DNA of 64,000 nt from Aridibaculum aurantiacum (GTDB lineage: Bacteria > Bacteroidota > Bacteroidia > Chitinophagales > Chitinophagaceae). Below are positions 2,918 to 6,482 of the stretch, piece after piece. The translations under genes and the position numbers were made by a program. The notes under the pieces are model-generated. The model searched no databases. It was not told the DNA's origin and was given only the letters and a program-made list of their open reading frames with translations. Position 1 is the stretch's first letter. The number at the start of each line of letters is the position of its first letter. The DNA lies in assembly GCF_017355875.1 (NCBI RefSeq), contig NZ_JAFEWC010000001.1, positions 2,294,001 to 2,358,000 of the forward strand. The letters are read 5' to 3'.

Positions 2918-4366
2918 TTACGCAGCCAGCAGTTCTTCTCCTACAAACAGCTTCTTATCATTGAAGCGTACATTCTCCGGCTTCCAATACTCTACTGAAA
3001 ACTTTGGCTTATGACCTATGGCTTTATATAGTTCTTCTGCCATTACCTTCTGTACATACTTCTCATTGCCTACTGTAGTAGCTATACTATCGTGAATAGT
3101 AAACAGAGGCACGTCGGGACGCTCTGCTGCAATACGGCGGGTAATAACCTTCAGCATCAGGTGGCTTTCTATCTGCTGCAATAGCCTGGGCAGCTTAGTC
3201 TTATCTCCCTTCTTAATTAAAGAGAAAAGGTGATAGACAGCCGGGAATATATCTTTAAAGAATTTCTTGGGTGCAGCTTCTGGTTTTGCTATAAATCTGT
3301 TGTCACTATAGAGCACCATAAACATTGCAGTCTTTACAGCTTTACGGGTTGCATAGTCAATACCCAACTCACTGCTCATCATCTTCTCAAGTTCTTCATA
3401 AAACATGCCTTGTGTTGCAATATCTGTATATCGCTCAAAGTCAATACCAGCTTGGATTACATCTGATTTTAGACACATAATGTAAGAAATATAATCCTGT
3501 GGTTGTAGGTTCTTGATGATTGATGTGTTCTTAATGGATTTGATATTGATTGTTTCACTGTTGTTACATAACCAAAAGCCTGTTAATAGTAAAACAGTAC
3601 TTAGATATGGCTGGCAATTTTTGACATCAATAGAGCAAAGCGGCAAACCATTATAATTAAGAAAGTGCCTAAGCTCCGAACGCATATTGGTTAGCGGTGT
3701 ATGTAAACGGTAAACATTATTATCCAGTTTAGCTGGCAGCTCGCCGTCGGCAATATTGTTTATGCTCAACTGGGCAGCCATATACTGTGTAACCGGGTCT
3801 TTGGCTTTGCCGGTTTTTAAATCAATATCCTGGAGCTCCGGATTTGCCAACTTACGGTCACGGTCGGCGGTGATGAACTTCATTGCCTGCTCATAATCAA
3901 TTTGCAGCCCGTCATCCAGCCACCGCAGCAGGTGTGCAACACTTTTCTTCATTTCCTTCGTGTATTTGCTGTCGGCTCTCTGATGTTTTATCAGCGTCCT
4001 GTTTGTTATAGTCACCGCCTGTAAACCGGTTCTGTATTTTGTTGTAAACCGATACCCTTTCGATTTACCACCAATATGTTTTTCATTAACTCCGGCTGGA
4101 ATATAACTGCCGTCAGTTTGCAGAATGCCGTTTTGTAGAAGGTATTTAAAGTAGCCGGGATAATCAGGCACCCGCTTTTTAAGAATGCGGGAATAGATGG
4201 GGACAAAACCGTCAACAATTTCAAGGTCTTTGTTGATGGCTGGTATATAGGATACCAGGTGAAGGATGTGGACTAACTTGTCTCTGTCAAATTTAGGAAT
4301 ATTGGATGGCGGGTTTTCTATCAGCAACTCGTCTATATCCAAGTTCTCTGGAATGTACTGCTTCAT
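2918..4366 (-). CDS. Family-A / single-subunit polymerase-like protein of the mobile element
   Basis: This 482-residue protein belongs to no family I can name with certainty. Three motifs match the palm and fingers of family-A DNA polymerases and T7-type RNA polymerases. A motif A-like LCSIDVKNCQPYL puts an acidic residue at D247. Motif B is R341-xxx-K345-x7-Y353, the same spacing as R627/K631/Y639 of T7 RNA polymerase and R754/K758/Y766 of Klenow. A motif C-like TIHDSIAT has H425-D426-S427, like the HDS of T7 RNA polymerase. The A-to-B spacing (94) is close to that of T7 (about 90), and motif C lies 56 residues from the end. The N-terminal 240 residues are much shorter than in T7 RNA polymerase, and no exonuclease motifs were seen. 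It sits between an excisionase-like gene and a restriction-modification gene. A role in element replication, priming or transcription is an inference. Confidence 0.6.
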   Translation of the reverse strand: MKQYIPENLDIDELLIENPPSNIPKFDRDKLVHILHLVSYIPAINKDLEIVDGFVPIYSRILKKRVPDYPGYFKYLLQNGILQTDGSYIPAGVNEKHIGGKSKGYRFTTKYRTGLQAVTITNRTLIKHQRADSKYTKEMKKSVAHLLRWLDDGLQIDYEQAMKFITADRDRKLANPELQDIDLKTGKAKDPVTQYMAAQLSINNIADGELPAKLDNNVYRLHTPLTNMRSELRHFLNYNGLPLCSIDVKNCQPYLSTVLLLTGFWLCNNSETINIKSIKNTSIIKNLQPQDYISYIMCLKSDVIQAGIDFERYTDIATQGMFYEELEKMMSSELGIDYATRKAVKTAMFMVLYSDNRFIAKPEAAPKKFFKDIFPAVYHLFSLIKKGDKTKLPRLLQQIESHLMLKVITRRIAAERPDVPLFTIHDSIATTVGNEKYVQKVMAEELYKAIGHKPKFSVEYWKPENVRFNDKKLFVGEELLAA

Positions 4367-4460: not shown

Positions 4461-4730
4461 TTAGGCAGCGTTGCGTTTATTGCCGTTCAGCACCTGCATA
4501 ACATCATTGTAGGAATAATAGATAGTGCCGCCCATTTTTGTAAATGGCAGTGTACCATTGATGCGCAGGTTTTGCAATGTGCCTGGAGAGCAATTGAGGA
4601 GCTTCATCACATCAGAACTCTTTAGCCACTCTTTCTGGTCGGATGCCGGTTGGATTATTCTTCTTATCTCTTCCAGCAGTTCCGTTTTAAAGTTTTTCAT
4701 GTCTTCCCGGGTCAGAATTTCTAAGTTCAT
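4461..4730 (-). CDS. Excisionase-like helix-turn-helix DNA-binding protein
   Basis: This 89-residue protein starts with a short charged helix (about residues 11-27). A MerR/HTH_17-type winged helix follows at about 34-82: EWLKSSDVMKLLNCSPGTL, then a wing with MGGTIYYSYNDVMQVL. Proteins of this size and fold next to tyrosine integrases in Bacteroidota elements usually act as excisionases or as element regulators. It lies 172 bp downstream of the integrase stop and 94 bp upstream of the polymerase-like gene, all on the minus strand. The upstream gap holds a perfect inverted repeat (4815-4831) that could be its binding site. An ATG at codon 11 is an alternative start. Confidence 0.75.
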   Translation of the reverse strand: MNLEILTREDMKNFKTELLEEIRRIIQPASDQKEWLKSSDVMKLLNCSPGTLQNLRINGTLPFTKMGGTIYYSYNDVMQVLNGNKRNAA

Positions 4731-4902: not shown

Positions 4903-6150
4903 TCAAGACACTTTTTTGAGTGTTTTACCTTCCGATTTGCTCGCAAACTTTGCCTTCAATAATTGCATATCATCACTAACCTTTCTATCTACAATTTTTG
5001 CATAGTGCTGCGTGGTACGAACAGACTTGTGACCAAGCATCTTGCTGACACTTTCTAATGGCACCCCATTGGTTAGTGTAACGGTGGTGGCAAATGTGTG
5101 GCGGGCTAAATGTGATGTGATGTTTTTAGTGATGCCGCATAGGTCGGCAATCTCCTTCAGGTAACCGTTCATCTTCTGATTTGTCAGTACAGGTAACAGC
5201 CTGTTATCTGCCTGGCACTTTGGATTGTTTGCATACTTCTCAATAATGCCAGCCGGAATAGGTAACAAAGGAATGCTGGAACGGGTGTCTGTTTTGGTTC
5301 GGTTTATCTTAATCCACTTCTCGCCATCAATACCCATGATGATGTGGTCTTTTGATAGCTTCTTTACATCGGAATAAGCCAAGCCAGTGAAACAGCAAAA
5401 AAGGAAAATATCTCTCACCTGTTCCAGCCGCTGGGTCGGAAACTGCTTTGCTGCAACTGCATCCAGTTCAGCTTCTGACAGGCACTCTCTTTCTACTTCA
5501 CGCAACGTGATTTTGTAATTGGTGAACGGGTCTCTTTCTAACCAACCATTACCAATGCAGATGCGGATAATCTTCTTGAAGTTGGTAATGTACTTAATGG
5601 CGGTATTATGGCTGCACTTCCGGACAGTCTTTAGGTAGTATTCAAATTCTGTAATGAACTCGTAATTGATTTGCTTAATCTCCAGGTCCGAAACATTGTA
5701 CTTCCACTGAATGAACTCCTGTGTGTGGCTTAGTGCGGTGCAATACCGTTCGTAAGTGCCGAAAGAGAAATCTTTGTTCAGCAGTTCTTTTACCTGGTTG
5801 TTGTGGTACTGGAAAACTTCAATGATGGTTTTGCCTTTTTCGGTAATGCCGAGGTAAGCATTTTTCACCGTTTCGGCGGTGATTGGTTTGTTGGCTTCCA
5901 TCAGCAGCCGGTAGTGCTCATTGAGTTTCAAACGAACAGCAGCCAAGTAAGCATTGATGCTTTTGCTTTCTTCGGTAGTGCCTTTTACAACACCTGCATT
6001 TGATACCCACTTTTCAGGGTCAACGCTGCGTTTGATGGAAAACTCTGTGCGAATTTCATTGATTGTAATTCTGGCGTAGATGGGAGCTTTGCCAGTTTCA
6101 TCAGCTTTAGACTTTTTAAGCTGAAATGAGAGGTGCATTGGAGTGCTCAT
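4903..6150 (-). CDS. Tyrosine recombinase / integrase of a tRNA-Ser integrative element
   Basis: The frame can begin at a GTG at 6216, but the ATG at 6150 (or 6138) begins the recognisable arm-binding domain and gives 415 residues. Domains in order are an N-terminal arm-DNA-binding region (about 1-85), a SAM-like core-binding domain (about 100-200) and a C-terminal catalytic domain. The catalytic domain shows HLARH (H347, R350), LGH (H374) and nucleophile Y383 in TTQHYAKI. The usual first arginine of TGxR is replaced by alanine (FTGLAYSD), a variation known from Bacteroidota integrases such as IntDOT and NBU1-type enzymes. The gene begins about 245 bp from the 3' end of the tRNA-Ser gene, as expected for an integrase next to its attachment site. 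The element therefore extends leftward, beyond the window. Confidence 0.93.
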   Translation of the reverse strand: MSTPMHLSFQLKKSKADETGKAPIYARITINEIRTEFSIKRSVDPEKWVSNAGVVKGTTEESKSINAYLAAVRLKLNEHYRLLMEANKPITAETVKNAYLGITEKGKTIIEVFQYHNNQVKELLNKDFSFGTYERYCTALSHTQEFIQWKYNVSDLEIKQINYEFITEFEYYLKTVRKCSHNTAIKYITNFKKIIRICIGNGWLERDPFTNYKITLREVERECLSEAELDAVAAKQFPTQRLEQVRDIFLFCCFTGLAYSDVKKLSKDHIIMGIDGEKWIKINRTKTDTRSSIPLLPIPAGIIEKYANNPKCQADNRLLPVLTNQKMNGYLKEIADLCGITKNITSHLARHTFATTVTLTNGVPLESVSKMLGHKSVRTTQHYAKIVDRKVSDDMQLLKAKFASKSEGKTLKKVS

Positions 6151-6250
6151 TTGCTGGTGATTTTGTTCTTTAAATTTAAGAAAAAAAGGGCAAAAAAGCA
6201 AGGTGCAATTATCCACAATTAATTGAAAAACAGTGGATTAAGTTAGTTAC

Positions 6251-6369: not shown

Positions 6370-6394
6370 ATTTAGTACCATTTGATATACTATC

Positions 6395-6482
<88 letters not shown>

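Follow-up and report, generated by a model that had tools for sequence, protein, structure and literature searches.

The window, a stretch of 64,000 nucleotides from the genome of Aridibaculum aurantiacum, contains part of an integrative element with the following features (negative positions lie outside the window):

1 to 2883, ending at -917 outside the window, minus strand: type IIG restriction-modification enzyme, 1266 aa in full (PADLOC REase_MTase_IIG, E 4.9e-248)
2918 to 4366, minus strand: gene for an A-family polymerase filed as TV-Pol type, 482 aa, ATG start (ORF, alignment A4, AlphaFold, Foldseek)
4461 to 4730, minus strand: HTH_17 excisionase-like protein, 89 aa (PF12728, E 4e-9; excisionase PHROGs among the matches)
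4903 to 6216, minus strand: tyrosine integrase (Pfam domains Arm-DNA-bind_5, Phage_int_SAM_5 and Phage_integrase)
6391 to 6409, no strand: 19-bp att-like direct repeat at the 3' end of the tRNA gene, with an exact second copy at -20315
6395 to 6482, minus strand: tRNA-Ser (TGA), the integration target

The original prediction had noted an integrase and a restriction-modification gene near the polymerase gene; both are present, together with the HTH_17 gene. The two 19-bp repeats enclose an element of 26,706 bp, the core of which consists, in order, of the integrase, the HTH_17 protein and the polymerase. Since the G+C content of the element (0.41) is like that of its flanks (0.414 and 0.423), the composition gives no support for a recent arrival. 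The cargo comprises the type IIG restriction enzyme, HipA_2, a Crp regulator, rhodaneses, sulphur transport proteins and TauE as well as a metallo-beta-lactamase-fold protein, a DUF4118 sensor kinase, a response regulator, an SNase and a Kup-like transporter, the last of which was named by eye. A sulphur-related block extends from -9444 to -2664 and encodes rhodaneses, Sulf_transp, TauE, the metallo-beta-lactamase-fold protein and regulators of the ArsR and Crp types. A Pfam scan of 17 element proteins, which left out two ORFs of the element, revealed neither a helicase nor a relaxase among the 25 families listed (of 33). An empty site was not found in the genus; both flanks were matched in four draft genomes, on different contigs.

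At the far end of the element a protein of 267 aa without Pfam match is encoded (-19626 to -18823; L060:13374-14177). It is 57% identical to a protein in locus L062 and 30-34% identical to others in L062, L063, L065, L068 and L089, and several of these loci encode a relative of it in the ORF immediately upstream of the polymerase. Elsewhere in the host genome two full matches to DNA_pol_A were identified (G000:C1:245250 and C1:1255820); 28 of the 29 other genomes of the family that were searched have one such match, and in the remaining genome a single match is split into two pieces.

Conserved residues and predicted structure of the polymerase

The polymerase family comprises 82 ORFs in 76 loci. 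Residue counts refer to alignment A4 with its 57 rows, namely 56 family ORFs and the window protein. Outside A4 stand 21 ORFs of less than 430 aa that are not in the main frames of the A4 loci, a second fragment in L128, the protein of L093, which is identical to that of L054, and three long ORFs (L053, L075 and L078). The relevant parts of the polymerase, all on the minus strand, are:

4001 to 4366: N-terminal domain, residues 1-122, with a strand, helices and a two-strand wing (winged-helix-like in the AlphaFold model)
3707 to 3709: R220, invariant Arg upstream of motif A (57/57), in a position like that of the TGRLSS Arg of PolA
3608 to 3628: motif A, D247-V-K-N-C-Q252-P253 (D 57/57, Q252 56/57), with the catalytic Asp at the end of a strand
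3308 to 3346: motif B helix (341-353), R341-x3-K345-x7-Y353 (K 57/57, R 47/57, F or Y 56/57)
3167 to 3178: Q397-x-x-E400 motif (LLQxxES; Q 56/57, E 57/57), common to four TV-Pol-like proteins
3086 to 3094: motif C, H425-D426-S427, in a beta-hairpin with strands 422-424 and 427-431 (D 57/57)

The residues that had been singled out from the sequence, D247, R341-K345-Y353 and H425-D426-S427, occupy these positions with a distance of 94 between D247 and R341, which is far beyond chance. Comparison with the homologues, proposed as a check, confirmed D247, K345 and D426, which together with R220, Y323 and E400 form the invariant columns of A4 (each 57/57). At the two remaining motif B positions, a basic residue at R341 and an aromatic one at Y353 are each kept in 56 of the 57 rows; Arg itself occurs in 47 (Lys in 9, Met in 1) and Tyr itself in 15 (Phe in 41, Asn in 1). 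Q252, Q397, H425, T423 and K385 were found in 56 rows each, R233 in 55 and S427 in 54. The three long ORFs outside A4 also keep R220, D247, Q252, Y323, K345, E400 and D426. Among the 57 homologues with invariant catalytic residues the identity falls to about 20%. Judged from the alignment, this conservation is the pattern of a putatively working A-family active site with a pre-palm Arg, the motif A Asp, the motif B Lys and the motif C Asp.

Five positions after the motif A Asp the family has Gln in 56 of 57 members (Q252), whereas 25 of 25 PolA proteins have Glu. At the position of Pol I F762, Phe occurs in 35 of the 57 rows of A4 and mostly Leu or Met in the others; both correspondences to Pol I are inferred from spacing. 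Judged from these two positions, the first of which is the apparent steric gate, the choice of sugar may be relaxed.

The polymerase did not match any family in Pfam (E up to 10) or NCBIfam, and the DNA_pol_A profile (PF00476) gave no match at E up to 10 either. The single PHROGs match below 0.1 was phrog_4756 (function unknown, E 3.6e-5). A phmmer search against the PDB chains returned five matches at chance level, the A1 profile one and the A4 profile none. Nuclease domains are not fused to the 482-aa polymerase.

The AlphaFold model obtained with A4 reached a pLDDT of 88.1 and a pTM of 0.87. It contains strand 241-248 with D247 near its end and helix 251-260, followed by helix 341-353 with motif B, a long helix at 391-415 and finally the hairpin with H425-D426-S427. 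A Foldseek search of the PDB yielded 72 matches at E<=0.001 (best E 2.6e-5), and the 50 of these 72 that are listed all belong to the A-family DNA polymerases of Pol I type, including Taq and its mutants, Bst, M. smegmatis, Aquifex and apicoplast enzymes, with low query TM-scores (0.27-0.39) and large rmsd. The original assignment of a compact A-family palm protein on an integrative element is supported. The best viral Foldseek match was A0A516L5C2 (TM 0.67 and 0.77, 24% identity), followed by a “putative DNA polymerase I” from a marine phage. In the model, helices 158-174 and 191-206 lie at the expected site of the thumb and may correspond to the bihelical antiparallel thumb module of TV-Pols.

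In the N-terminal part, for which alignment A5 covers 39 of 43 N-terminal pieces, the original prediction had seen no evident promoter-recognition domain; this part is nevertheless not without features. Modelled alone, residues 1-122 gave a pLDDT of 89.7, with strands and helices ordered much as in a winged helix. The 50 Foldseek matches listed for this domain include many winged-helix proteins, and since none of the matches is significant (best E 0.13) the winged-helix identity is a suggestion.

Distribution and gene neighbourhoods of the homologues

The distribution of the polymerase is sporadic. A protein search found a homologue in 13 of 196 relatives, and a profile search in 36 of 396 genomes of the order and 17 of 296 genomes of the phylum, the own genome being counted in each case. 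Single-protein scans of genome and viral contigs returned nothing and alignment-based scans found homologues. In a species-level collection (one genome per species, 84,980 bacteria and archaea) 68 polymerase loci were detected, the titles of which name Bacteroidota with the exception of L084 (no lineage in the title); because the query patterns were drawn from members of the Bacteroidota, a wider spread is possible. Some of the genera among these 68 loci are ones that we take to belong to the Bacteroidota. Named strains of many Bacteroidota genera carry the polymerase. Homologues also occur on viral contigs (L051-L056 and L129-L131), and eight phage records were matched, six of them uncultured (595-735 kb) at E 6e-6 or better and the other two at E 6. 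A further homologue resides on a 35-kb Hymenobacter plasmid. The idea that it serves as the sole replication protein of the H. qilianensis plasmid was rejected, since this plasmid also encodes an annotated “replication initiation protein” of its own.

The nearest relative, L061, has the same order of integrase, HTH_17 protein and polymerase beside the same tRNA-Ser (TGA), with identities of 70%, 66% and 45%, respectively, and the two polymerases are paired in the tree with a support of 99/91. In L101, L103, L107, L124 and L129 the polymerase frame is split into two pieces, so the gene is either decaying or misread there. The genome G529 of the phylum search showed matches at four separate places with seven matched pieces, which suggests that it may carry several copies of such elements.

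Neighbourhoods were counted in those 47 of 75 loci that have at least 4 kb on both sides. An integrase is encoded within 6 kb of the polymerase in 32 of the 47, in 18 of these 32 with a tRNA gene within 1 kb of the integrase; in the other 15 loci no integrase cluster was found within 6 kb. HTH_17 occurs in 15 loci and AAA_24 with DUF3871 in 12; HTH_17 and AAA_24 never occur together (0/47), and 18 of the 47 loci have neither context. In some loci the polymerase gene is preceded by one for a UvrD helicase or for a large protein which appears helicase-like by eye and has no Pfam match. A recurrent module in L078, L081, L085 and L094 consists of an integrase, a UvrD or large helicase-like protein, the polymerase, an AAA_24 ATPase and DUF3871, and is partially present in L054 and L073. 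Two Bacteroidales loci that are sisters in the tree contain a gene for a DnaQ-type exonuclease directly 3' of the polymerase gene (L064:11386-12150 and L066:11374-12192; RNase_T, PF00929, E 1.9e-27 and 8.4e-26), which possibly provides proofreading in trans.

Relationship to TV-Pols and other mobile-element polymerases

According to the original prediction, no function had been described for this architecture. This does not hold, as the TV-Pol family, A-family polymerases of transposons and viruses with 400-600 residues, was described by Iyer, Abhiman and Aravind in 2008 (PMC2579912), and a proposed member primes DNA when paired with a partner protein (PMC7581432). TV-Pols have an absolutely conserved Arg in a hairpin, two Asp in the palm, RxxxK and a conserved Asp in the fingers and no links to nucleases; they adjoin lambda-type integrases and restriction-modification operons, were predicted to act as primase and polymerase, and occur in hosts that include Bacteroidetes, the members of which were not singled out (PMC2579912). 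The window polymerase is similar with respect to its A-family core without nucleases, its stand-alone organisation and size, its integrase and restriction-modification neighbours and its Bacteroidetes host. Both the conserved Arg before the palm (R220) and the two palm Asp (D247 and D426) are invariant in A4, and the integrases within 6 kb in 32/47 loci, the att-like repeat and the tRNA gene agree with carriage by mobile elements. Within the fingers RxxxK, K345 is invariant and R341 is mostly kept as Arg or Lys; a near-invariant fingers Asp was not seen in A4.

The cyanophage Ma-LMM01 is named as a holder of a TV-Pol, with no gene number in the text (PMC2579912). Its TV-Pol is presumably gp030, a protein of 506 aa encoded beside transposases. 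By tblastn three plasmid proteins related to gp030 were detected (two Polaromonas plasmids and one Calothrix plasmid), and these four TV-Pol-like proteins have the motifs LLQxxE and D[IVL]xx[SC][QH] in common with the window protein. The ordered motif R..R..D[IV]xx[SC][QH]..K..LQxxE..HD[SG], which was loosened after the sequences had been seen, is present in 54 of the 57 family members and in 4/4 TV-Pol-like proteins; its first version matched 52/57 and 1/4, respectively. The loosened motif was absent from 25 PolA proteins, from T7 RNA polymerase (RNAP) and T7 DNA polymerase (DNAP), from the 463 other ORFs in the same loci that reach 300 aa or more and from 3050 shuffles. Profile E-values against the single TV-Pol-like proteins ranged from 0.0078 to 0.072, each not significant alone, with ranks of 1/94, 2/25, 1/5 and 1/15 among the ORFs of their records. 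In 395 genomes of the phylum gp030 had no match; among the viral contigs it matched 16 loci with 84-94% identity, and its plasmid kin matched none. Because of the ordered motifs shared with gp030 and its plasmid relatives and the high profile ranks, each of them weak singly, the polymerase fits the TV-Pol type and is filed as such, with a tentative sequence kinship. The Bacteroidota polymerase is a new, clade-level member of a kind that is already known and has barely been tested. In the titles and opening abstracts of the literature on TV-Pol or on family A polymerases of mobile elements and plasmids this Bacteroidota clade was not found described as such.

Several features differ from those of the TV-Pols. 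The N-terminal domain is winged-helix-like, whereas an all-helical one was predicted for a TV-Pol subset, and the D5-like helicase that is fused or adjacent in a TV-Pol subset does not lie beside the polymerase (PMC2579912). Motif C reads HDS, in contrast to HDG in 4/4 TV-Pol-like proteins compared. Finally, a nuclease gene is linked to the polymerase in L064 and L066, although TV-Pols were reported never to show such linkage (PMC2579912).

The proposed TV-Pol mentioned above is CCPol of SCCmec. Paired with the small protein MP, this enzyme starts DNA strands de novo, an activity that mutants in the catalytic Asp lose (PMC7581432, PMC10061031); without MP it extends primers only (PMC10061031). 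CCPol-MP and the PolA-SSB primases of SCC and related elements share with the present system an A-family polymerase on a mobile element with a site-specific recombinase close by. The last thumb helix is described as shorter in CCPol (151-156, predicted) and T7 RNAP than in Pol I (684-692), which may leave space for the first triphosphate (PMC7581432). In our model the helix ahead of motif A (230-235) has six residues, the same length as CCPol 151-156, and probably represents the counterpart of the short thumb helix. Unlike the CCPol systems, the window polymerase is flanked only by the HTH_17 protein (89 aa) and the type IIG enzyme, without an adjoining MP-like partner, OB-fold SSB or helicase gene; it has Gln where CCPol has E174, a Glu that contributes to the exclusion of ribonucleotides in Pol I; and it lacks the part of the 3'-5' exonuclease domain that CCPol retains. 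The N-terminal winged-helix-like domain could take the role of MP. In another branch of the family, proteins of 110-141 aa (cluster 8) are encoded near the polymerase in L076, L097, L101 and L103 and about 9 kb off in L082 and L090. They are beta-rich and possibly of OB-fold by eye, with no Pfam match in the one member scanned, and are possibly a candidate for an MP-like partner in that branch.

Two other systems offer further parallels. The pipolins of E. coli (PMC7385651) likewise encode their own polymerase, are bounded by att-like direct repeats overlapping a tRNA gene and contain a recombinase with an excisionase-like neighbour and restriction-modification components, but their polymerase (piPolB) belongs to family B rather than family A. 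The divPolA2 of barbaviruses (PMC11348598) combines an A-family palm with an N-terminal domain of non-standard type and lacks a 3'-5' exonuclease, but differs in being phage-borne beside a regular PolB. A 435-aa Barba31A entry was among the viral Foldseek matches, a weak one with TM 0.29 and 0.31.

Proposed role and alternative explanations

We consider it probable that the polymerase is an A-family enzyme of the TV-Pol type and the replication enzyme of the 26.7-kb element inserting in tRNA-Ser, in which case it most likely primes and copies the element DNA. Among the roles suggested originally, replication or priming is possible, and the lean towards the T7 type is not upheld. The computed basis consists of the predicted fold, the conserved catalytic set, the lack of nuclease domains, the mobile context and the short helix before motif A, from which we infer that the enzyme is catalytically active and primes, that its N-terminal domain binds DNA and that its purpose is to replicate the element. 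The integrase and the excisionase-like HTH protein would free the element as a circle, or the element would enter the cell in single-stranded form. Template or origin DNA would then be held by the winged-helix-like domain at the N-terminus, and in the Pol I type palm D247 and D426 would be the metal ligands, with K345 and R220 at the substrate and template. The palm would then make a primer de novo and extend it, and helicase, replicase and repair enzymes of the host would complete the replication. In favour of this reading are also the ordered motif shared with the TV-Pol-like proteins, the shorter distance between R220 and D247 than its equivalent in PolA, the sporadic distribution and the gene order that L061 has in common with the element. 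Against it stand the missing Pfam and NCBIfam matches, the profile comparisons below significance, the low Foldseek TM-scores, the 15 of 47 loci lacking an integrase cluster within 6 kb, the separate initiator of the H. qilianensis plasmid and the failure to find an empty site in the genus. In addition, no helicase was seen among the 25 families listed (of 33) for the element, whereas CCPol works with a helicase.

Alternatively, the enzyme might be a primer-dependent DNA polymerase only, which fills gaps or makes second strands from host primers during excision, entry or repair. The behaviour of CCPol without MP (PMC10061031) would be in line with this, as no MP-like gene adjoins the window polymerase, and the DnaQ-type exonuclease downstream in L064 and L066 fits longer, proofread synthesis. 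However, the helix ahead of motif A seems to be short, like that of CCPol and T7 RNAP, which both start de novo (PMC7581432), and the N-terminal domain could replace MP. A purely primer-dependent enzyme seems unlikely.

An element-specific single-subunit RNA polymerase of the T7 kind appears very improbable. The original prediction had placed the protein closer to T7-type RNA polymerases than to DNA polymerase I on account of HDS in motif C and the spacing between motifs A and B. The value of 94 is correct, but this spacing is not diagnostic, because the distance between D247 and K345 varies from 55 to 176 within the family (53 in 25/25 PolA). Apart from HDS, the replacement of Glu by Gln at the apparent steric gate (56/57 members), a weak match of one of the 57 members to PF00940 (RNA_pol, E 0.003) and the profile comparison, in which the motif C stretch had a lower E-value against T7 RNAP (0.058) than PolA had (0.3; T7 DNAP 0.064; none significant), would agree with a T7-like enzyme. 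On the other hand, the distance between the Asp of motifs A and C is 179, close to the 177 of 25/25 PolA and far from the 275 of T7 RNAP, only A-family DNA polymerases stand among the 50 PDB matches listed (of 72), and the TV-Pol-like proteins have HDG in 4/4. Kinship with T7 RNAP was therefore rejected, although motif C alone aligns to it. The polymerase shares with bacterial DNA polymerase I the motif order, the D-to-D spacing and the fold, and differs from it by the lack of exonuclease domains, a shorter stretch before motif A (27 between R220 and D247; equivalent 38 in 25/25 PolA) and Gln instead of the apparent steric-gate Glu of motif A, which reads DYSQIELR in 25/25 PolA. On balance, it is Pol I-like with features of its own.

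A part in a defence system with the adjoining restriction-modification gene could be suspected from the type IIG enzyme immediately downstream, from the 16/47 loci in which clusters of type I restriction, or cluster 21, lie no further than 10 kb from the polymerase and from Rice 2023, where defence is raised for PolA-SSB primases, but is highly unlikely given that PADLOC did not match the polymerase at E<=0.001, that its downstream gene changes between loci and that AAA_24 and DUF3871 are its partners in other loci instead.

Returning to the replication enzyme of the element, a more far-reaching version would regard it as an A-family counterpart of the pipolin polymerase, a single polypeptide that would find the element DNA by its winged helix, prime without helicase or SSB and accept both rNTPs and dNTPs owing to the Gln steric gate, on tRNA-inserted elements throughout the Bacteroidota. 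We regard this version as conceivable, though rather doubtful.

According to a statement in the CCPol paper of 2020, its authors knew of no other biochemically characterised TV-Pol (PMC7581432). With a compact protein, a confident model and no partner protein, the Bacteroidota clade is well suited to test cleanly whether enzymes of family A can prime by themselves. It likewise bears on the question of why a polymerase should be carried by an integrative element that shows neither phage nor conjugation genes in view, and it may yield a small primase-polymerase for DNA amplification.
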